Source: Acidobacteriota bacterium
Lineage (GTDB): Bacteria > Acidobacteriota > Terriglobia > Terriglobales > SCQP01
Assembly: GCA_027315185.1 (NCBI GenBank)
Contig: DAHUYO010000003.1
Location: forward strand, 38,694-102,693
Length of the DNA stretch: 64,000 nucleotides
Direction of reading: 5' to 3'
The first letter of the stretch is position 1, and each line of letters starts with the position of its first letter. Positions 7,306-43,310 of this stretch are shown piece after piece. The notes below the pieces were generated by a model. It was not told where the DNA came from. It ran no database searches and saw nothing but the letters and a program-made list of their open reading frames with translations. The translations under genes and the position numbers were made by a program.

Positions 7306-9741
7306 ATGCCCGCCCTGCTCTCCGATCTCCGTTCCTCGCTGCGGCAAATTCGCCGCGCCCCCGCCTTCGCCGCCGCCGTCATCGCCACCTTGGCCTTGGG
7401 CATCGGCGCCAACACCGCCATCTTCAGCGTGGTCAGCGCGGTCCTGCTGGCGCCGCTGCCGTTTCGCAATCCCGGTCGTTTGGTCGCGTTGCCCGGCTAT
7501 TACTCCTACCTGAACTATCGGGATCTGCGTACCCGCGTCGGCGCCTTCTCCGGCCTGGCGGCTTACAGCAATCAATCCATGTCCCTCACCGGCGCGCATC
7601 GCCGCCCGCGGCAGGTGCGCGCCGTGGTCACCGCCGGTGCGCTGTTCCGCGTGCTGGGCGTCCGCCCCGCCCGGGGCCGCGGCTTCCGCCTCACCGACGA
7701 CCAGTCCGGCGCCGTCGGCGGCGCCAATGCCGCCGTGCTCAGCCATCGCCTGTGGGTGCGGGCTTTCGGCGCCACGGCTTCCGTCCTCGGCCGCCGCATA
7801 TTGCTCAACGGCCGCGCGTATCAGGTGGTGGGCGTCATGCCCGCCGGCTTTCAGTTTCCGCTGGGCCAGCACACCGGTCTTTGGACCACCGTCGGCCCGC
7901 TGCAAGCCGCCACCCCGCCGCCGCCGATCACCGCCGAGCGCGGAACGGGGTTTCTGTCCGCTGTCGGCCGCCTGCGGCCCGGCGTCACGCTGGCCGGCGC
8001 GCAGGCGCAGGTGACCGCCGTCGCGCATGTCCTGGCGCGGCGCTATCCGAATGACGACGCGCATTTCGCGCCGCGCCTCGTCTCCCTGCGCGGCAGCGTC
8101 GAGGGCCGCGTCCGCGGCTTGATCTGGCTGTTGTTCGGCGCCGTCGGCTTGGTCTTGCTGATCGCCTGCGTCAATGTGGCCAATCTGCTGCTGGCCCGCG
8201 GCCTCGGCCGCCGCCGGGAAATGTCCGTCCGCGCCGCGCTCGGCGCCGGCCGCGGCGCGCTGACCCGCCTGCTGCTGGCGGAAAGCGCCGTCTTCGGCGC
8301 CGCCGGCGGCGCCCTGGGCCTGCTGCTGGCCGCCTGGCTGACCGCCGGGCTGCTGCGCCTGGCTCCGGGAGATGTCCCGCGCCTGGCCCAGGCCGGCATT
8401 CGCTGGCCGGTCATGCTGTTTGCCCTGGGCTCGGGGCTGGGCGCGGGATTGCTGTTTGGTTGGCTGCCCGCCGCCGGGCTGTCCCGCGCCGACCTGCGGC
8501 TGGCGCTGAACGAAGGCGGCCGCGCCGGCAGTGAAAGCCGCCGCCAGCGCCGCTGGCGCGGCGTTTTGGTCGCCGCCGAGATCAGCCTGGCGCTGGCCCT
8601 CTCGGCTTCGGCGGGCTTGCTGCTGCGCAGCTTCGCGCGGCTGGAATCGGTCGCGCCCGGCTTTGCTCCCCGCCATCTGCTCACCGCCGCCGTCAACCTG
8701 CCGGATACCCGCTACGCTCCCGCCCAGCGCGCCGCGTTCGCCCGCCGCCTGACCGCGGACCTCGCCGCCCAACGCGGCATTCGCAGCGCCGCCGTCGGGC
8801 TTATCCTCCCCTTTTCGGGCTTCAACTTCTTGGTGCACTTCAATTGGCCGGCGCGCCCGGTCGCGGCGCCGGACCAGCCCGCCGCCCCGTTCAACATCGT
8901 GACGCCCGGCTATTTCCGCACCTTGGGCGTTCGCCCCATCCGCGGCCGCGCCTTCACCGCCGCCGACACCGCATCGTCTCCCCCGGTGATGCTGGTCAAC
9001 CAAGCCTTCGCCCGCAAATATTTTCCCGGCGAAAATCCCGTCGGGCGTTTGCTGGCGCCGGGGCTTTCCATGTCCGCCCATCCGACGCTGCAAACCATGA
9101 CCCGGCAAATCGTCGGCCTCGTCCCCGATTTGCATCAATCGTCCCTGCGCCAGCCGGCGCCGCCGATGATCTTTGTCCCGGAGGCGCAGTTCTCCGGTTT
9201 CGGCGAGCTCGGCATCTTGATCCGCACCCAGGGGGCTGCCGCCGCCGCTGCGGGAGCCCTGCGCGCCGCCGTCGCTCGCCTCGATCCCACTTTGCCGGTC
9301 TACGCCATCCGCCCCATGCGATCCCTGGTCGCCGGCTCCATGGCGCGGCTGCGCTTCGCCCTGGGGCTGATCGCCGTCTTCGCCGCCTTGGCCCTGCTAT
9401 TGGCCGCCGTCGGCCTTTACGCCCTGATGGCGCAGTTGGCGGCGCAGCGGCGCCGCGAAGTCGGTATTCGCCTCGCCTTGGGCGCGCCCCGCGGCGAGGT
9501 CTTGCGGCGCATCGTTGGCCAAGGCATGGCGCTGGCGCTGGCCGGCGCCGCAGCGGGCCTGGTGTTCAGTTGGGCGGCGGCGCGCTCGTTGGGATCGTTG
9601 CTCTTCGGCGTTTCCGCCACGGACTGGACGACCTTCGCGGCCGCGGCCGTGCTGCTGCTGGTGGTGGCGCTGGCGGCTTGTTACCTGCCCGCCCGCCGCG
9701 CCGCCCGGGTGGATCCGGCGGTGACGCTGCGGGAGGAATAG
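7306..9741 (+). CDS. ABC transporter permease, ADOP/MacB-like
   Basis: MPALLSDLRSSLRQIRRAPAFAAAVIATLALGIGANTAIFSVVSAVLL; ...LPARRAARVDPAVTLREE. Confidence 0.9.
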   Translation: MPALLSDLRSSLRQIRRAPAFAAAVIATLALGIGANTAIFSVVSAVLLAPLPFRNPGRLVALPGYYSYLNYRDLRTRVGAFSGLAAYSNQSMSLTGAHRRPRQVRAVVTAGALFRVLGVRPARGRGFRLTDDQSGAVGGANAAVLSHRLWVRAFGATASVLGRRILLNGRAYQVVGVMPAGFQFPLGQHTGLWTTVGPLQAATPPPPITAERGTGFLSAVGRLRPGVTLAGAQAQVTAVAHVLARRYPNDDAHFAPRLVSLRGSVEGRVRGLIWLLFGAVGLVLLIACVNVANLLLARGLGRRREMSVRAALGAGRGALTRLLLAESAVFGAAGGALGLLLAAWLTAGLLRLAPGDVPRLAQAGIRWPVMLFALGSGLGAGLLFGWLPAAGLSRADLRLALNEGGRAGSESRRQRRWRGVLVAAEISLALALSASAGLLLRSFARLESVAPGFAPRHLLTAAVNLPDTRYAPAQRAAFARRLTADLAAQRGIRSAAVGLILPFSGFNFLVHFNWPARPVAAPDQPAAPFNIVTPGYFRTLGVRPIRGRAFTAADTASSPPVMLVNQAFARKYFPGENPVGRLLAPGLSMSAHPTLQTMTRQIVGLVPDLHQSSLRQPAPPMIFVPEAQFSGFGELGILIRTQGAAAAAAGALRAAVARLDPTLPVYAIRPMRSLVAGSMARLRFALGLIAVFAALALLLAAVGLYALMAQLAAQRRREVGIRLALGAPRGEVLRRIVGQGMALALAGAAAGLVFSWAAARSLGSLLFGVSATDWTTFAAAAVLLLVVALAACYLPARRAARVDPAVTLREE

Positions 9742-10810: not shown

Positions 10811-11932
10811 ATGAGCCACGGCCTGTTCCATGTGCCCGCCGTTTTCATCACGCATGGCCGCGAACTGCTGATCGGCGTCATCGTGCTGGCCATCGCGGTC
10901 GGGGTGGCGCTGTTGGTGCACGCCATCGTCTTCGCCGCGCTGCGGCGGATCAGCCGCCGGCCGGGGCATGTGCTGGATGAATCCATCGTGCGCCATGGCA
11001 GCCGGCCGGCGAAATGGATCTTTATTTTCACGGCCCTTTTGGTCACGGTGCCGACCACGCCGCTGCCGCAGATCTTGGCGACCGGTGTCGAACATGTCAC
11101 CGCCCTTGGCCTGATCGCCGCGGTGGCCTGGATATTCATCGCGGCGACGGCGGTGCTCGCCGACCTGCTGTCGGCGCGCTACCGCGTGGACGTGGCTGAC
11201 AACCTGAGCGCGCGCAAAATCGAAACGCAAGTTCATGTGCTGCGGCGCGTGACCACGGTGGTGGTGGTGATCGTGGCGGTGGCGATGGGGCTGATGACGC
11301 TGCCCGGCATAAAGACCCTGGGCGCCAGCATGCTGGCCTCGGCGGGGCTGGCCGGCTTGGTCGTCGGCATGGCGATGCGGCCCACGCTAGCCAACCTGGT
11401 CGCGGGCATACAGATCGCCCTGACGCAGCCGATCCGGCTGGAAGACGCGGTCGTCGTCGCCGGCGAGTGGGGCTGGGTCGAGGAAATTACCGCCACCTAC
11501 GTCGTCATCCGCGTCTGGGACTGGCGGCGGCTGATCGTCCCGCTCGCCTACTTCACCGAGCAGCCCTTTCAGAACTGGACGCGAGATGCCGCCAACCTGC
11601 TGGGCTCGGTCATGATCTACGCGGATTACACCGTGCCGGTGGACGAGCTGCGCGCCGAACTCCAGCGCGTGCTGGCCACCGAGCCGCTTTGGGACGGCAA
11701 GGCCAGCGCGTTGCAGGTAACCGACGCCACCGACCGGACCATTCAGGTTCGGATCCTGGCCGGCGCGCTCAATTCCGGCGATGCCTTCACGCTGCGCTGC
11801 AACATCCGCGAGCGGATGATCCGCTTCTTGCAGGAAAAGCATCCCGAGTGCCTGCCCAAGACGCGCGGCGAGTTGCACGCCGAGTGGCCGGCCGCGGCGC
11901 CGCGGCCGGCGGGCCAGGGCGCGGCCGGCTAA
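10811..11932 (+). CDS. Mechanosensitive ion channel, MscS family
   Basis: TM helices followed by ASAGLAGLVVGMAMRPTLANLVAGIQIALTQPIRLEDAVVVAGEWGWVEEITATYVVIRVWDWRRLIVPLAYF (MscS beta domain). Confidence 0.88.
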   Translation: MSHGLFHVPAVFITHGRELLIGVIVLAIAVGVALLVHAIVFAALRRISRRPGHVLDESIVRHGSRPAKWIFIFTALLVTVPTTPLPQILATGVEHVTALGLIAAVAWIFIAATAVLADLLSARYRVDVADNLSARKIETQVHVLRRVTTVVVVIVAVAMGLMTLPGIKTLGASMLASAGLAGLVVGMAMRPTLANLVAGIQIALTQPIRLEDAVVVAGEWGWVEEITATYVVIRVWDWRRLIVPLAYFTEQPFQNWTRDAANLLGSVMIYADYTVPVDELRAELQRVLATEPLWDGKASALQVTDATDRTIQVRILAGALNSGDAFTLRCNIRERMIRFLQEKHPECLPKTRGELHAEWPAAAPRPAGQGAAG

Positions 11933-12640: not shown

Positions 12641-12707
12641 GCGCGAGCGCCCGCGGGCTGAAGCCCGCCGCACACGGGCTGGAGCCCGTTCCACCTTCCC
12701 CCCGCGT
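12641..12707 (+). repeat. Interspersed repeat family 1, copy 1b
   Basis: gcgagcgcccgcgggctgaagcccgccgcacacgggctggagcccgttccac. Confidence 0.8.
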
Positions 12708-12884
12708 GCCCCGGCGCCGCACGCGGCGGGACATCCGGCAACGGCGCGATCCCGCGAGTTGCCGCTTCTCCGCGACGCTCAAGACTAGTTACGCGCGACG
12801 CCGTTTTTTCTTTCCGCCGCCGCCACGCGGCTCTTAGAATGATTCCAGTTTGCATTCCCGAGGGTTTCGGCATTGCGAGGTCGC

Positions 12885-24636: not shown

Positions 24637-24906
24637 ATGGCCTTTACCAAGGAAGACAAGCAAGCGCTGGTGCAAAGCTTCGCCATTCACGCCACGGATT
24701 GCGGTTCGCCGGAAGTCCAGGTGGCGGTGCTGACGGAGCGCATCCGGTATTTGACCGAGCACTTCAAGACCCACAAGCAGGATCATCACTCGCGCCGCGG
24801 GCTCCTGCTGATGGTGGGCAAGCGGCGGCGGCTGTTGGATTACCTTAAACGCCGGGACGCGGCCCGTTATCGCGGCGTCATTCAAAAGCTGGGGCTGCGG
24901 AAATAG
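24637..24906 (+). CDS. rpsO: 30S ribosomal protein S15
   Basis: [72 protein letters not shown]. Confidence 0.98.
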
Positions 24907-36940: not shown

Positions 36941-36987
36941 CCGCACAGCGGAGCGGGGCGGATAGCGGAGCGGGACGGCGCGCCGGC

Positions 36988-37518
36988 CTAGCCCGGGAGG
37001 AATCCGCGCTGGCCGGATTCCAGGGCCAACAGGTCCGCCTTGAGGGCCAGGCCGCCGCCGAAACCAGTCAAACGGCCGTCGGCGCCGATGACGCGGTGGC
37101 AGGGAACGATGATGGGGAGGGGATTGGCGCCGTTGGCCGCGCCCACGGCGCGGGCCGCGCGCGGCAGGCCGACGCGCCGCGCGAGTTCGCCGTAGCTGAT
37201 GGTTTGGCCATAGGGAATGCGCCGCAGTTCCGCCCACACGCGAAGCTGGAACGACGTGCCCTGGGGCGCAAGCGGAACATCAAAATGAGTGCGGCGGCCG
37301 GCGAAATATTCCCCCAGCTGCTCGCAGGCGGAGGCGAGGATGCGGCGCGCCGCGGCAGGGTTGGATGCGCTGGCGGAGGGTTCCGCGGCGGCAGCCGCTA
37401 GGGGCGGAGGCGGAGAACTCCGTCCAGGGCGGGGCGGAAACTCCACGCGCCGCAGGCCGTGTTCATCCGCGGCTAACTTTATCCTTCCGACCGGGGTCTC
37501 CAGCGATGCGCAATGCAT
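36988..37518 (-). CDS. Methylated-DNA--[protein]-cysteine S-methyltransferase
   Basis: [68 protein letters not shown]. Confidence 0.95.
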
Positions 37519-37773
37519 GTTCTTGTCCACGGGCGCGGAGGTGTCGGCACTCCGGCCGGCTCGCAAAGCCGGGCATGGTTGTGGCGCCGTTGATGGGCAC
37601 CGGTCCGAGCGCGGCCATGCCGCGCCTCGCCCGCGAGTCGAATCCACTACCCACACCGATTATGGTACGCGCGGAGAGCCGCCGCTTCAGGGTATATTCC
37701 CCAGCGCACGGTCTGGAGGGCGCGCTAGCGAATTTCGCGAGAGGCGGCGCGGCAGACGGTTTATAGTGACAAT

Positions 37774-38763
37774 GTGCAGCCACATCCGGTGACGTTGCCG
37801 GGCGGCAGGGATAGCAAGAGCCGCCTTCGAGCCAAAATTGCTGTTTCCGCGGGGGGGGTGGCGCTGTTGCTGGCGCTGCCGGCGTTCGCCGCCTCGGGGG
37901 GAGTCGCGCGCGTGCGTTCCCGCCGGGAACGAGCCGAAGCGGGAGGCGGCGGCGAGCTGGACGGCGCGCCCCTGACGGGCGCCTACTTGGCGCGGCGGTT
38001 GCCGTCCATTTCGCTTCTGCGGCGCTCGCCGTTCGCGTCGGGCCAGCCCCGCCTGGCGGCGTTCGCGTATCCAGTATTCTCCGCTCAGGCCATGGCGCAG
38101 GACGCGGACCAGAGCCAGAAGGGGAAACAGAAAGTCGAGAAGAAGGGCAAGGTGCGCCTTACCTACGGCGCGGGAAAAGGGCCGAAGTATTCGCCGGGGC
38201 ACTTGTTCTACGTCATCCCCGCCTATGAAGTCTCCTACTTGAAAACGGTGCCGCCGATGACGCCGAAGCAAAAATTCGACGCCATGTTCAGCGAGACCTA
38301 TGACTGGCAAGGGCTGGCGATGGGCGGCTTGGAGACGCTGTTCGAGCACACGTCGAACGGCTATTGCGGCTATGGGCCGGGCTTTGGCGGCTACATGAAA
38401 TGCTTTGCCTCGGCGCAGATTGACGCGGACGATTCGGGGTTCTGGGGCGATTATGTCTTCCCGGTTTGGTTTCATGAGGACCCGCGCTATTTCCGCCTGG
38501 GCGAGAGCCATTCGTTCGCGGCACGGTTCCTGTACGCCGTGGACCGGACGTTCATCGTGCGCAGCGACCTAACCGGGCGCTCGACCTTCGCTTGGGCGCC
38601 GACGCTGGGAACCATCCTGGCCGCGATCGCTTCCAACACCTACTATCCGAACGCCCAGCGCGGCGTGGGCCTGACCGCCAGCCGCGTGGAGTTCGACCTG
38701 ATCGGCACCGCCATTTTCAACCTGGAAGCCGAGTTCTGGCCGGACATTCGGAACCTGTTTTAA
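37774..38763 (+). CDS. Hypothetical exported protein
   Basis: Signal-like N-terminus; FYVIPAYEVSYLKTVPPMTPKQKFDAMFSETYDWQG...VWFHEDPRYFRLG...TYYPNAQRGVGLTASRVEFDLIG. Confidence 0.7.
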   Translation: MQPHPVTLPGGRDSKSRLRAKIAVSAGGVALLLALPAFAASGGVARVRSRRERAEAGGGGELDGAPLTGAYLARRLPSISLLRRSPFASGQPRLAAFAYPVFSAQAMAQDADQSQKGKQKVEKKGKVRLTYGAGKGPKYSPGHLFYVIPAYEVSYLKTVPPMTPKQKFDAMFSETYDWQGLAMGGLETLFEHTSNGYCGYGPGFGGYMKCFASAQIDADDSGFWGDYVFPVWFHEDPRYFRLGESHSFAARFLYAVDRTFIVRSDLTGRSTFAWAPTLGTILAAIASNTYYPNAQRGVGLTASRVEFDLIGTAIFNLEAEFWPDIRNLF

Positions 38764-38840
38764 CCAGTTGCCCATCGCGGGCGCCGCGCCGTTGGCTCGG
38801 GGGCGCCGCCCTCAGCCGGGCCGCGCCGCCGGCGGCGGCC

Positions 38841-38882
38841 GTGGAATGGGCTTCAGCCCGTGTGCCGGCGGGCTTCAGCCGG
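38841..38882 (-). repeat. Interspersed repeat family 1, copy 1d
   Basis: Reverse complement CCGGCTGAAGCCCGCCGGCACACGGGCTGAAGCCCATTCCAC. Confidence 0.8.
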
Positions 38883-39014
38883 CCGGTTGGCGCGACCCCG
38901 TGACAGCCAACTTGGAATGGGCTCCCCTCCGCCGGAGGGGAACGTCCTCTCGGCAACCCTGCCGAGCACCGCTACGGCCGCTTCACGCTGCCGCAACGGA
39001 GTGCAGCCCGTCAT

Positions 39015-39060
39015 TGGCAGGCGCGGCGGGACTCGAACCCGCGACCCTCCGCTTAGAAGG
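39015..39060 (-). repeat. Partial duplicate of tRNA-Arg 3' end (attachment-site-like boundary)
   Basis: TGGCAGGCGCGGCGGGACTCGAACCCGCGACCCTCCGCTTAGAAGG matches 42731-42776 at 44/46 positions. Confidence 0.85.
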
Positions 39061-39176
39061 CCCTTTTAGCCCATTACTGCCGTTTGCTGGCGCCTGCTGT
39101 AAACTGCTGTAAAAACAGGCTTTATATGCGTTTTGGCGATCCGCCCATTGCTGTCATTCGCTTCCCTTTTTGCCCT

Positions 39177-39205
39177 GGGGTCCCCAGCATAGTCCCCAGC
39201 ACTTC
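39177..39205 (+). repeat. 29-bp direct repeat, left copy
   Basis: GGGGTCCCCAGCATAGTCCCCAGCACTTC; 26/29 to 42659-42687. Confidence 0.8.
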
Positions 39206-39301
39206 TCGCGGGTTCGCTACGGGGTACGGATCGTTACGTGGCATGTACCCTGATCCGCGGACCAGATGCGTCCTCGACTGAGGCGCGGGACAATCCTTGA
39301 C

Positions 39302-39859
39302 ATGAGGCGATCGCGTAATGTCGGCTTATTGCTTGCTGGCGTAGCTCTGTTTCCGCTGGGTTGCTCCCACGCGCCCCCAAAGCCCACCGTGGGCTCCATT
39401 TCTGGAAAGGTACAGGTGGCCTTCGAGAGCGGAAGAGTCCGGGCCCTAGCGTTTGACACGGTATACCTCTCCCGGACACCGATCCAGGTGCTAAGTCCCC
39501 GGCAGCAGCTCGCGCTTATGGTCCCCGAGTCTGAGCTCAATCAGGAGTTTATGGACGGTTTCATCAGCGAGGACTCGTACAATCGGAAGGTAGATGAGCT
39601 TTCTACCGCCGCAGATACCTTTAACCGAAACATCGAGTCCTTAAATGTGCCCGCCGTCCAGCAGGCGACAACCGATGCCGATGGGGATTTCTCGTTTCAT
39701 GGAGTCAGCCCCGGACGGTATTGGCTGGTCCTTAATGACTGCGTTGCAGGGAATTACGTGGGCTGGTCGGAGCCGGTAACGGTGTGGCCTGGCACTACGG
39801 CGTCGGCTAGCCTGAACAACACTGATACGGCCTATGCGTTCAATCTTGGGACCTTGTAG
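39302..39859 (+). CDS. Putative lipoprotein with carboxypeptidase-regulatory-like (beta-sandwich) segment
   Basis: MRRSRNVGLLLAGVALFPLGCSHAPPKPTVGSISGKVQV...TTDADGDFSFHGVSPGRYWLVLNDC. Confidence 0.65.
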   Translation: MRRSRNVGLLLAGVALFPLGCSHAPPKPTVGSISGKVQVAFESGRVRALAFDTVYLSRTPIQVLSPRQQLALMVPESELNQEFMDGFISEDSYNRKVDELSTAADTFNRNIESLNVPAVQQATTDADGDFSFHGVSPGRYWLVLNDCVAGNYVGWSEPVTVWPGTTASASLNNTDTAYAFNLGTL

Positions 39860-39895
39860 GACTGGCACCCAACCCAAGACTTGGGCGAGGCATCA

Positions 39896-40854
39896 ATGCG
39901 CGTTCTCAGATTTCTTCACGGAAGGGAAGTGCTGAGCGAGATCGCCAGGCGCAGATTGACCTCGGGCCGGTTTAGCGTAGCTGTCGCCTACATCGGCAGG
40001 GAGCCACGGCTACGGCTTGATCTCCGGCCTGGCGACAGGGTGATCTGCGATCTCGATGCGGCTGCGAAGGGTTCGTTGGATCCGCGCGCGGTGCGGGAAC
40101 TAATCGCGTGTGACGTCAGTGTCAGAAAGGCCCCGGGCCTCCACGCGAAGGTTTACCTCGCAGAAAACTGGGCGGTCGTTGGGTCCGCAAACCCGTCCAA
40201 AAACGCCGAAAAGGCATTGGAGGAGGCTGCAGTACTGTCGGAGGGCCCCGCTTTTGTCCGCTCGATTTCACGGTGGTTCGAGGATCAGTGGGAAAGAGCG
40301 CGGGTGGTTCCGCCCGGCGAACTGGAGGAATTGATAAGGGCGTACGACATCGCGAGACGCGCGCTGCGGAAACTGGATGCGCGCGTCGGCGTTCGGCGTA
40401 AGGTACACCGCGCTCCGTCCCATCGCTCATACGGCGTTATCACGGAGAGGCGCTTCTGGTATGTCAACACAAATAGCGACAGTACCGAACGCCAAATGCT
40501 AAAGCATCGGGAGGCCCGCGCGTACGGTGTAAGACAGTCGAGGCTTTCCGGGATAGAAAAGGGCGATGTGGTATTTCTTTGGAGAAGCGATTGGGGATTG
40601 TCGCCGCCGGAATTGCCAACGGAAAACGTGGGCAGCGGGATTTGCAGAACGGTGACTATTACGAGCGCTATGTCTCAATTCGTGTGAGCTTCCGGCGTTT
40701 TCCGGACCAGCCGGTCAACGCGCGCTCCGCGAAGCGGATTGGAAGGGGGGCGATCCATCCGAAGTACGGCTTTCCGGACACGTGCAACGCCCTGCGTGTC
40801 GCGGCGGGCGAGCGGCTCTGGGATTATATCCAAGCAAACAGGCCCGCCCACTGA
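39896..40854 (+). pseudogene. PLD-like nuclease fused to PUA/EVE-like domain, interrupted by a likely -1 frameshift in a G-run at 40593-40596
   Basis: Frame 1 to ~40596 (HAKVYLAENWAVVGSANPS; ...FWYVNTNSDS...IEKGDVVFLWRSDWG); continuation in the frame of ORF 40579..40854 (GIVAAGIANGKRGQRDLQNGDYYERYVSIRV...DYIQANRPAH). Confidence 0.65.
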
Positions 40855-41063
40855 CTGTGGGGCGCAGCGAGCGCGGCGGCGGGTCACCCCGAAAATGGCA
40901 AAAACTCATTCCAAAACGCTTGTGATTCGCCGCTCTCGTACTCGGCATCGCGCCAGCCCTCCGCGAACCGGGCGGCGCGGACCTTAGATTTCGTTCCAGC
41001 TCAGGCGCATCCAATTCGGCGGTCCCGTAGGCCGCGACAGGCGCTAGTATGCACCAGCCGCAG

Positions 41064-41204
41064 TCACAGTGACCAGATGATGAGCGCAGCGCCGAGAAGG
41101 ATCATGAGCAGCGCAATCTGGCGTTGTAGACACCATTCAGGGGCCTTGGGTTCGTGATCGCCGGTCGGCGGCCCTGGCACGAGCGGATTATCGTTGTTGT
41201 TCAT
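41064..41204 (-). CDS. Tiny membrane protein (46 aa), hypothetical
   Basis: MNNNDNPLVPGPPTGDHEPKAPEWCLQRQIALLMILLGAALIIWSL; start overlaps stop of upstream ORF (ATGA at 41201-41204). Below ORF-track size cutoff. Confidence 0.5.
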   Translation of the reverse strand: MNNNDNPLVPGPPTGDHEPKAPEWCLQRQIALLMILLGAALIIWSL

Positions 41205-41440
41205 GGAGGCACCGGGCATCCCATCATCCATAACAGCACGCCTCCAACCAGCAGCAGCGCTCCCGCCGCGCGCATTCCGTCATGGCCATCGTCGGCTGAC
41301 TTGGCGGGCATTAGGCATGGCTGACCCTCCACCTTCATTCGGTCGCCCCAGCGCTGTTGTACCAGGCGGCGCGCGCTTTCCCGCAGGCGTTCCCGCTGGG
41401 CGGCATCGTCGCCCGGCGGACCGGTTCGGCCGTGCGCCAA
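41201..41440 (-). CDS. Small C-terminal-TM protein (79 aa), hypothetical
   Basis: MAHGRTGPPGDDAAQRERLRESARRLVQQRWGDRMKVEG...GMRAAGALLLVGGVLLWMMGCPVPP. Confidence 0.45.
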   Translation of the reverse strand: MAHGRTGPPGDDAAQRERLRESARRLVQQRWGDRMKVEGQPCLMPAKSADDGHDGMRAAGALLLVGGVLLWMMGCPVPP

Positions 41441-41719
41441 TGCGCTGGCCCCTCATGCGGCGGCACACCCTGCGTGGCGATTTGACGGCGCGGTGGTTCC
41501 GTCCGCTCCAGTGCCCGCGCGACGGGGCCCCGGGGACGACGGCGGCGACGGCGCATCGCTACGGCCGCTTCGCGCTGGAGGAACTGCGCGATGCCGTCGA
41601 GGCTATTTCCAGTAGAACGCTCCGTGCGGGCCGCCACGCCACGCGGGCGGCCAGGCCCGGTCTGGGCAGTGTAGGCTGGTGGCAGGTCCTAGGCTTAGTA
41701 GGTAGTCCAGCCCGGCTGG

Positions 41720-42583
41720 GTGGTGAGCGTGGCGGATTACAAGTCCTTCGTTGACGATAGCGGCACTCATGCAGGGGCGAAAGTGTGCGTCGCTGGCGGA
41801 TTCGTTGCACAGCGTTTGCCCTGGAGAGAATTTGCGGCGGACTGGACAAGGCTGCTCTCTCGTTTTCAGGTCCCGCCAGAGCGGTTCCATGCGAAGCTGC
41901 TCTACCCAGAACCAAAGGGCTGGTTTAAGCGGGATTGGGCTCAAATCGGGCGGCACGCGGAGTTTCTGTGCTCCCTCAAGGGTTTAGTCATGCGGCACCG
42001 GAAGATCAGGCCGTATGCGTTCGCCGTCCTAGCTGACGATTTTTATCAATACGCCCATCACGTGCGGCGTTGGCTGACCGGGGCGGACGTGAGGATGGGA
42101 GCGTTGCTGACTTCTGGAAAACCTTCAGCCCCCTTTTTTTACTGCCTGCAGAGCTTTCTACAGGCCACCTGTCTCGGATGGCCAACCGACGCAAAAATCG
42201 ATTTTGTGATGGGGCTTGATAGGCGCGACGCTGGATACGCCGCCACGCTGATTGCGGAGATTGTGGGCAGCCGACACCAGGGCGGCAGACATTCTTGGAA
42301 ACGGGCCCTTGGGGCCGTTAGCTGCCCATCTTCGCGCGCAATGCCCGAACTGCAGGCGGCGGACCTCCTGGCCTACGCGACCCACCGCTTTTTTGAGCAG
42401 GAAGCGGCGGCGGGTCGGCTCGCTGGCAGGGTGGCACCGGCGCTGCCAGAATACCTTGACGCGTTGTTCAAGAACAGGAGGGATGGGCACGCGCTGCAGA
42501 TTGATGACTCGCGGGCGATGTTGGCTAAAATCGAGCACGCCAAAGAGATGTCCCGGCGGGGCAGCGAGGCGTTGTTTAGCTAA
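41720..42583 (+). CDS. DUF3800 domain-containing protein
   Basis: YKSFVDDSGTHAGAKVCVAGGFVAQ N-terminus, IDFVMGLDRRDAGY, PELQAADLLAYATHRFFEQ. Confidence 0.8.
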   Translation: MVSVADYKSFVDDSGTHAGAKVCVAGGFVAQRLPWREFAADWTRLLSRFQVPPERFHAKLLYPEPKGWFKRDWAQIGRHAEFLCSLKGLVMRHRKIRPYAFAVLADDFYQYAHHVRRWLTGADVRMGALLTSGKPSAPFFYCLQSFLQATCLGWPTDAKIDFVMGLDRRDAGYAATLIAEIVGSRHQGGRHSWKRALGAVSCPSSRAMPELQAADLLAYATHRFFEQEAAAGRLAGRVAPALPEYLDALFKNRRDGHALQIDDSRAMLAKIEHAKEMSRRGSEALFS

Positions 42584-42658
42584 TGCTTCCTCACCCCACG
42601 CCTACGCCTAAGGGAAATTGGTACGGGCATGTTGCCCAGCGGGCAACCTTACTTCCTC

Positions 42659-42687
42659 GGGGTCCCCAGCAAAGTCCCCGACACTTC
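42659..42687 (+). repeat. 29-bp direct repeat, right copy
   Basis: GGGGTCCCCAGCAAAGTCCCCGACACTTC; 26/29 to 39177-39205. Confidence 0.8.
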
Positions 42688-42730
42688 ACGCCCCCTGGCC
42701 AGCAGGGAACCGATAAGTTGTTGATTCTAT

Positions 42731-42807
42731 TGGCGGGCGCGGCGGGATTCGAACCCGCGACCCTCCGCTTAGAAGGCGGATGCTCTGGTCCACTGAGCTA
42801 CGCGCCC
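42731..42807 (-). tRNA. tRNA-Arg (anticodon TCT), CCA encoded
   Basis: Reverse complement GGGCGCGTAGCTCAGTGGACCAGAGCATCCGCCTTCTAAGCGGAGGGTCGCGGGTTCGAATCCCGCCGCGCCCGCCA folds as a cloverleaf; anticodon loop CTTCTAA. Confidence 0.97.
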
Positions 42808-43031
42808 GCGGCTTCCATTCTACGGCGGCGCGGCGGCGGGCCGCACGGAGCGGCGGCGACGCGGTGTGCACGCCGGCCGCGCGGGCAGCGCGGCGCTAGC
42901 GGTGGCGGGGCCGCTGGAAACGCTGGAGAACGCGGCCAACGTCGCGCAGGGAGCGGCGCGCGACGCGAGCGATCAGGTCCTTGGCGGGATGGCTGGAGCT
43001 GCCTCGGGCGTCGGTGCCTTTGGCCGCGGCG

Positions 43032-43274
43032 TTACTGGGCGCCGCTGCCTGCGGCTGCGGCTTCGGCGGCGAGGATATGGGCTTCGGCGCCTTGGAAGCC
43101 GCAGGTTTTATGGCTGCCGTCACAGAAGGGTTTGTTGTTGGAATGGCCGCAGCGGCAGAGAGAGATGGCCGGCTTGTTGATGGGAATTTCCTGTCCGTTG
43201 GAATCAATAAGGGTGAATAGCCCCTCGACGTGGAGCGAACCGTTGCGGCGAATGGTGATCTTGACGTCCGGCAT
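43032..43274 (-). CDS. CDGSH iron-sulfur domain protein
   Basis: INKPAISLCRCGHSNNKPFCDGSHKTCGF: CxC...PFCDGSH motif. Confidence 0.93.
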   Translation of the reverse strand: MPDVKITIRRNGSLHVEGLFTLIDSNGQEIPINKPAISLCRCGHSNNKPFCDGSHKTCGFQGAEAHILAAEAAAAGSGAQ

Positions 43275-43310
43275 AAGACAACAGTGTAAACCGCGCTTGC
43301 GGATCGCGGC

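Follow-up and report, generated by a model that had tools for sequence, protein, structure and literature searches.

An integrase-less island bounded by a duplicated tRNA-Arg(TCT) 3' half in an acidobacterial genome

The island and its insertion site

The stretch of contig DAHUYO010000003.1 analysed in this work (64 kb in total, hereinafter referred to as the window) belongs to an acidobacterial metagenome-assembled genome of 3.77 Mb (G000; 263 contigs, 86% complete) and harbors a 3.7-kb island between a complete tRNA-Arg(TCT) gene, the only tRNA detected by ARAGORN in the window, and a displaced copy of its 3' half. The two copies constitute a 49-nt direct repeat (39013-39061 and 42729-42777, 47/49 identical) in the same orientation, whose start-to-start distance is 3716 bp. 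The initial annotation had described a 46-bp duplication of the tRNA 3' end with 44 matching bases, which was borne out and is contained in this longer repeat. Since the repeat extends from the anticodon loop to the 3' end of the gene, the tRNA remains whole, and the detached 3' half is found at a distance of 3.7 kb. No third copy of this core was found within the island. The features bounding the island are the following:

39013..39061, minus strand: displaced tRNA-Arg 3' half (attL-like core), with two substitutions with respect to both the tRNA and the empty site
42731..42807, minus strand: intact tRNA-Arg(TCT); the attR-like core corresponds to its 3' part (42729-42777) and was presumably restored by the element

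The empty site that the initial annotation had proposed to look for in related genomes was found in a sister species (G001, about 90% DNA identity), where the two flanks of the island adjoin at an unoccupied tRNA-Arg. Positions 36942-39061 of the window align with G001:C71:5925-7998 and positions 42729-43308 with 7950-8536 of the same contig, the overlap being represented by the repeat only; moreover, once the window flanks are joined at the repeat, a single unbroken alignment of 2679 bp (89.4%) crosses the junction. On this basis, the insertion is real. The tRNA-side core does not differ from the G001 site, whereas the detached core differs at two positions, as is to be expected once selection has ceased to act on it. 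The phospholipase D (PLD) and DUF3800 genes carried by the island were not found in either congener (G001 and G002), and the search for close homologues in the family disclosed at most one marginal match. Outside the island, window positions 38803-38900 correspond to a dispersed intergenic repeat (GGGCTTCAGCCCGTG-like), present in several copies in G000, G001 and G002, which stops near the G002 contig break.

The composition of the island also sets it apart from its surroundings. The guanine plus cytosine (GC) content between the repeats is 0.613 vs. 0.684 for the rest of the window, the lowest value for any stretch of 3.7 kb in the window, and is accompanied by the most deviant trinucleotide profile; the GC content at third codon positions ranges from 0.665 to 0.681 in the three cargo genes and from 0.73 to 0.885 in five flanking genes. 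The lower GC content claimed by the initial annotation is confirmed.

Probable arm-type repeats and a probable integrase relic

The sequence GGGGTCCCCAGCANAGTCCCC is located just inside both ends of the island (39177-39197 and 42659-42679), with two matches in the window vs. about 0.01 expected by chance, and it is embedded in a 45-nt repeat showing 80% identity. The repeat pairs at the two ends are the following:

39180..39201, plus strand: left arm-type repeat pair GTCCCCAGCATAGTCCCCAGCA, about 115-118 bp inside the core
42662..42683, plus strand: arm-type repeat pair of the right end, GTCCCCAGCAAAGTCCCCGACA, separated from the core by about 45-50 bp; its counterpart in relatives lies in the integrase 3' end

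The location of the inner repeats, their arrangement in tandem and their occurrence at both ends match what lambda-type att sites would lead one to expect of tyrosine integrase arm-type sites, which they probably represent. The same arrangement is shared by three integrase-bearing elements, i.e., one integrated in the same tRNA-Arg(TCT) of a relative (G012) and two located at other tRNA genes of G000: the tRNA-Glu element (contig C155, core copies at 24802 and 40401), with GTCCCCGYAGCGTCCCC inside both ends, and the tRNA-Asn element (C213), with the motif GGGCACAAAAYCGGGCACAA inside both ends. In these elements, the tRNA-side arm copy is located in the 3' terminal part of the integrase gene. 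The distances of the left and right pairs from the respective cores are 115 and 50 bp in the window, 130 and 48 bp in G012, 129 and 47 bp in the tRNA-Glu element, and 142 and 38 bp in the tRNA-Asn element; hence, in all four, the spacing to the core is 115-142 bp for the left pair and 38-50 bp for the right one, with 19-20 of 20 bases matching vs. maxima of 15-16 in shuffled sequences (19 of 20 vs. 15 in the window). This rule is not universal, as no matching pair was detected in a tRNA-Val element or in the smallest tRNA-Glu segment.

The idea that the inner repeat might represent the tail of an integrase encoded on the minus strand (EVLGTMLGTP) was dropped; in the integrase-bearing relatives, the tRNA-side repeat falls within the 3' end of a plus-strand integrase. 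A search of viral contigs for the arm pattern retrieved only unrelated coding repeats of the AAWDAAGDAA type, and the search for it in 396 genomes of the phylum yielded no match outside G000, with the only exception of one carrying one mismatch. A third copy of the arm-type repeat of the island is present in the sister G001 (L083 2767-2806; G001:C55:2785-2806), close to the border of a region that G000 and G002 lack at the orthologous place; neither a tRNA nor a core was found adjoining it.

A genome-wide search with PF00589 gave no match in the island, and the scans against Pfam, PHROGs and NCBIfam assigned none of the island open reading frames (ORFs) tested to an integrase or relaxase family. 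The absence of an integrase reported by the initial annotation is thus confirmed, the only trace being a short stretch:

41530..41604, plus strand: probable integrase C-terminal relic PGTTAATAHRYGRFALEELRDAVEA, 64% identity over 25 aa to the G012 tRNA-Arg integrase

This stretch was retrieved by tblastn using the G012 integrase as a query, with 16 of 25 residues identical in the region around the catalytic tyrosine, and its 33.1 bits represent the best match in all 64 kb (20 shuffles reach at most 30.8). Its location inside the island, which accounts for 6% of the window, adds weight to the assignment as a probable relic. A further stretch resembling an integrase C-terminus (RYGHF-like; HRYGRF in the window, AHRYGHFTPPELR in G001) flanks the left core on its outer side (38966-39008) in both species; it is not a dispersed repeat, and it may tentatively be regarded as the scar of an earlier integration at this tRNA.

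Related elements and cargo genes

The analysis of the same tRNA-Arg(TCT) in relatives revealed different degrees of occupation. In G012 (G012:C1, L175), a 6.1-kb element with the same core boundary as the window island and GTCCCC-type arm pairs at similar distances harbors an intact integrase of 465 aa, whose tail is related to the relic, together with an AAA_25 ATPase and a weak match to a CHC2-type zinc finger; no cargo shared with the island was seen. In G004 (L177 4188-5610, G004:C44), the occupant is only 1.3 kb long, has the same core boundary, and retains, joined to an OprB-like cargo ORF, only a C-terminal piece of integrase (24.9 bits with PF00589, slightly under the cut-off). The fusion ORF, a deletion junction, adjoins a toxin-antitoxin-like pair (a ParE-toxin-like gene and an addiction-module-component gene). 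In G007, a detached core lies on a separate short contig with an integrase gene, and contig breaks prevent its link to the tRNA. The intact integrase of G012, the fused relic of G004, the integrase-less island of the window and the empty site of G001 form a series from intact to stripped into which the island fits, and in this family the tRNA-Arg gene represents a hot spot.

G000 itself contains two additional integrase-less segments bounded by cores, one at tRNA-Glu (1.2 kb) and one at tRNA-Asn (2.9 kb), each being distal to an integrase-bearing neighbour. The tRNA-Glu segment (G000:C155:23513-24844) carries a zeta-toxin-like gene (PF06414) and lies in tandem with a 15.6-kb integrase-bearing element; no arm pair was detected in it. 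The tRNA-Asn segment (L144 486-3368, G000:C213; 2.88 kb), also in tandem with an integrase-bearing element, has the arm pair CGTGACCCTTATTTGACCCG at both ends, a motif also found in the G004 tRNA-Arg element. An intact integrase of G000 is 56% identical to the G012 tRNA-Arg integrase.

Mirror-image elements were also disclosed, in which the integrase is located upstream of the tRNA and the duplication involves the 5' half of the latter (from nt 1 to about 39-40) rather than the 3' half; the C-terminal tail of their integrases bears an SGTRSGTG-like motif. Islands with 5' fragments represent a small minority in Islander (159/3919; PMC4383910). The three loci are:

G000:C196 (L142 3906-3994 / 12703-12742)
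G001:C64 (L179 1345-1418 / 10811-10849)
G003:C75 (L182 1906-1981 / 7312-7350)

As for the content of the island, the following genes and ORFs were recognized:

39305..39859, plus strand: predicted lipoprotein with a weak carboxypeptidase-regulatory-like domain (PF13620, E 6e-6, below the curated cut-off); alternative start at 39266
39881..40687, plus strand: PLD-family protein (PLDc_2, HxK...N motif; PF13091, E 1.2e-7, above the cut-off)
40579..40854, plus strand: overlapping frame, possibly a frameshifted PLD C-terminus; tentative, from homologue length, with no family match
41064-41231 and 41201-41440, minus strand: two small overlapping ORFs, uncertain as genes, each with a C-terminal hydrophobic stretch recognized by eye and no family above the cut-off
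41720..42583, plus strand: DUF3800 protein (PF12686, E 6e-5, above the cut-off)

The PLD gene is likely frameshifted, since its ORF ends early with respect to its homologues and the overlapping frame runs to position 40854. These homologues (314-320 aa, 26-33% identity) are located on Rhodococcus and Agrobacterium plasmids, and only such distant ones were retrieved, no close PLD homologue being found in genome contigs. Close homologues of the DUF3800 gene were found neither in viral contigs nor in plasmids or phages, and no relative of known structure was found for either protein. An RNase H-like fold has been modelled for DUF3800, and a connection with Cas12a2 loci has been described (PMC10910872). 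The identification of the PLD protein as DISARM DrmC (17.1 bits vs. a curated NCBIfam cut-off of 133) or as DpdK (15.8 bits vs. 100) was rejected. The defence-like label that the initial annotation gave to the cargo finds only weak profile matches, nothing observed connects these genes with a defence system, and such a role is unproven.

Origin of the island and comparison with known systems

The repeats, the empty site, the geometry common to integrase-bearing elements and the lack of an integrase gene describe an element that is integrated at the 3' end of a tRNA and has no integrase of its own, as the initial annotation had proposed, a view supported by the empty G001 site, the integrase-bearing G012 occupant and the arm-type repeats. 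Most likely, this island is a decayed element resembling a cis-mobilizable element (CIME), which kept its att and arm-type sites and lost its integrase. According to this model, a tyrosine integrase would have recombined the circle of the element with the part of tRNA-Arg(TCT) extending from the anticodon loop to the 3' end; the element would have brought a new 3' half, keeping the tRNA intact (42731-42807), and the old one would have been displaced to 39013-39061. The tandem GTCCCC pair inside each end would have served as the arm-type binding site of that integrase, whose gene would later have been lost through an internal deletion or rearrangement, leaving the C-terminal relic and three cargo genes. 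The island could move again only with an integrase supplied in trans, or if a new element integrated into either of its att sites. The initial annotation had left it open whether the integrase had been lost or never carried; the probable relic and the decay intermediate of G004 favour a loss, and make the second option less likely.

Some points weigh against this interpretation. No gene reveals whether the ancestor was an integrative and conjugative element (ICE), an integrative and mobilizable element (IME), a prophage or a satellite, and we infer the arm-type function of the inner repeats from their position and repetition alone. The relic is short and barely exceeds the shuffle maximum, and it is separated from the right arm pair by about 1 kb containing the DUF3800 gene, an order implying that a single simple deletion is insufficient and that the island may be composite. 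The latter is also hinted at by the inner part around the relic (41250-41749), which is host-like in composition (GC 0.708) and lies between low-GC blocks. Lastly, G000 is incomplete, and no information on this locus comes from the second sister, G002, whose contig stops inside the left flank.

The order of relic, DUF3800 gene and arm pair leads to a variant compatible with the decayed element, in which at least two insertions at tRNA-Arg would have decayed together, with arms and cores coming from one of them and the relic and the GC-rich middle being older. Besides the DUF3800 gene and the GC-rich block, the RYGHF-like stretch outside the left core and the tandem occupation of tRNA-Glu and tRNA-Asn in G000 speak in its favour, and the lack of a third core copy inside the island speaks against it; this composite history is possible, yet less likely than not. 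It might also be surmised that the island is a genuine satellite, integrase-less by design and moved by an integrase in trans acting on its intact cores and arms, as the initial annotation had also envisaged. The good conservation of both cores and both arm pairs, the second core- and arm-bounded segment without integrase in G000 (tRNA-Asn), which has the arm motif of the G004 element, and the intact G000 integrase related to that of G012 are in agreement with this idea. However, no integrase with matching GTCCCC-12-bp arms was found in G000, the related integrase, at tRNA-Asn, differs in both its arm motif and its core, the element was seen only once, and the relic points to a loss, so that such a satellite is conceivable but unlikely. 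A still bolder extension, i.e., that this family possesses a class of integrase-less satellites with matched cores and arms moved in trans by the integrases of other elements recognizing that arm motif, even between tRNA targets, appears somewhat less probable again; the pointer to it is the arm motif GTGACCCTTATTTGACCC shared by the tRNA-Asn segment of G000 and the G004 tRNA-Arg element. As to a chance similarity, with conserved host genes beside a tRNA and a fortuitous repeat, no supporting point was found, and the empty G001 site with borders exactly defined by the repeat, together with the lack of the cargo genes in the sisters, refutes it almost completely.

Returning to the decayed element, the island gives the impression of a remnant left stranded, which might still be able to move. 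At a single locus of one uncultured bacterial family, the empty, intact-integrase, fused-relic and integrase-less states depict decay at a tRNA hot spot.

The island shares with the satellites of the P4-like and phage-inducible chromosomal island types its small size, its location in a tRNA gene and a possible need for help in trans; in the Pfam, PHROGs and NCBIfam scans, none of its ORFs matched an integrase, primase, replication, packaging or helper-interference family. The island also resembles the tDNA islands of Islander, defined by a complete tDNA, a displaced 3' fragment downstream in the same orientation, a size of 2-200 kb and an integrase ORF contained in or overlapping the island (PMC4383910). 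The tRNA is intact, the displaced fragment has the same orientation, the site is the anticodon loop and the 3716 bp fall within the size range, whereas in place of an integrase there is only the 25-aa probable relic. Islander-type searches reject integrase-less islands (PMC4383910), which are thus systematically overlooked by them; paired core and arm repeats at a fixed spacing are suggested as a signature for those missed by tools requiring an integrase.

CIMEs keep attL and attR, lack integration and transfer genes and range from 1.2 to 13 kb, including cargo (PMC5704250, PMC7563491); they have been reported in the distal position of tandems (PMC7563491). By definition, they descend from an ICE or IME through deletion and may be mobilised in cis following the accretion of a related element (PMC5704250). 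Similarly, the island, located at a tRNA 3' end, retains attL and attR and lacks integrase and relaxase families, and the tRNA-Glu and tRNA-Asn segments of G000 are distal in tandems. Unlike them, it stands alone, apparently keeps its arm-type sites and belongs to an acidobacterium, the CIMEs of those two studies being mainly streptococcal; moreover, there is no evidence of an ICE or IME ancestor; the integrase relic and the G004 intermediate were observed, and no conjugation gene is left to type the ancestor. Overall, the island belongs to an already known kind of genomic island.

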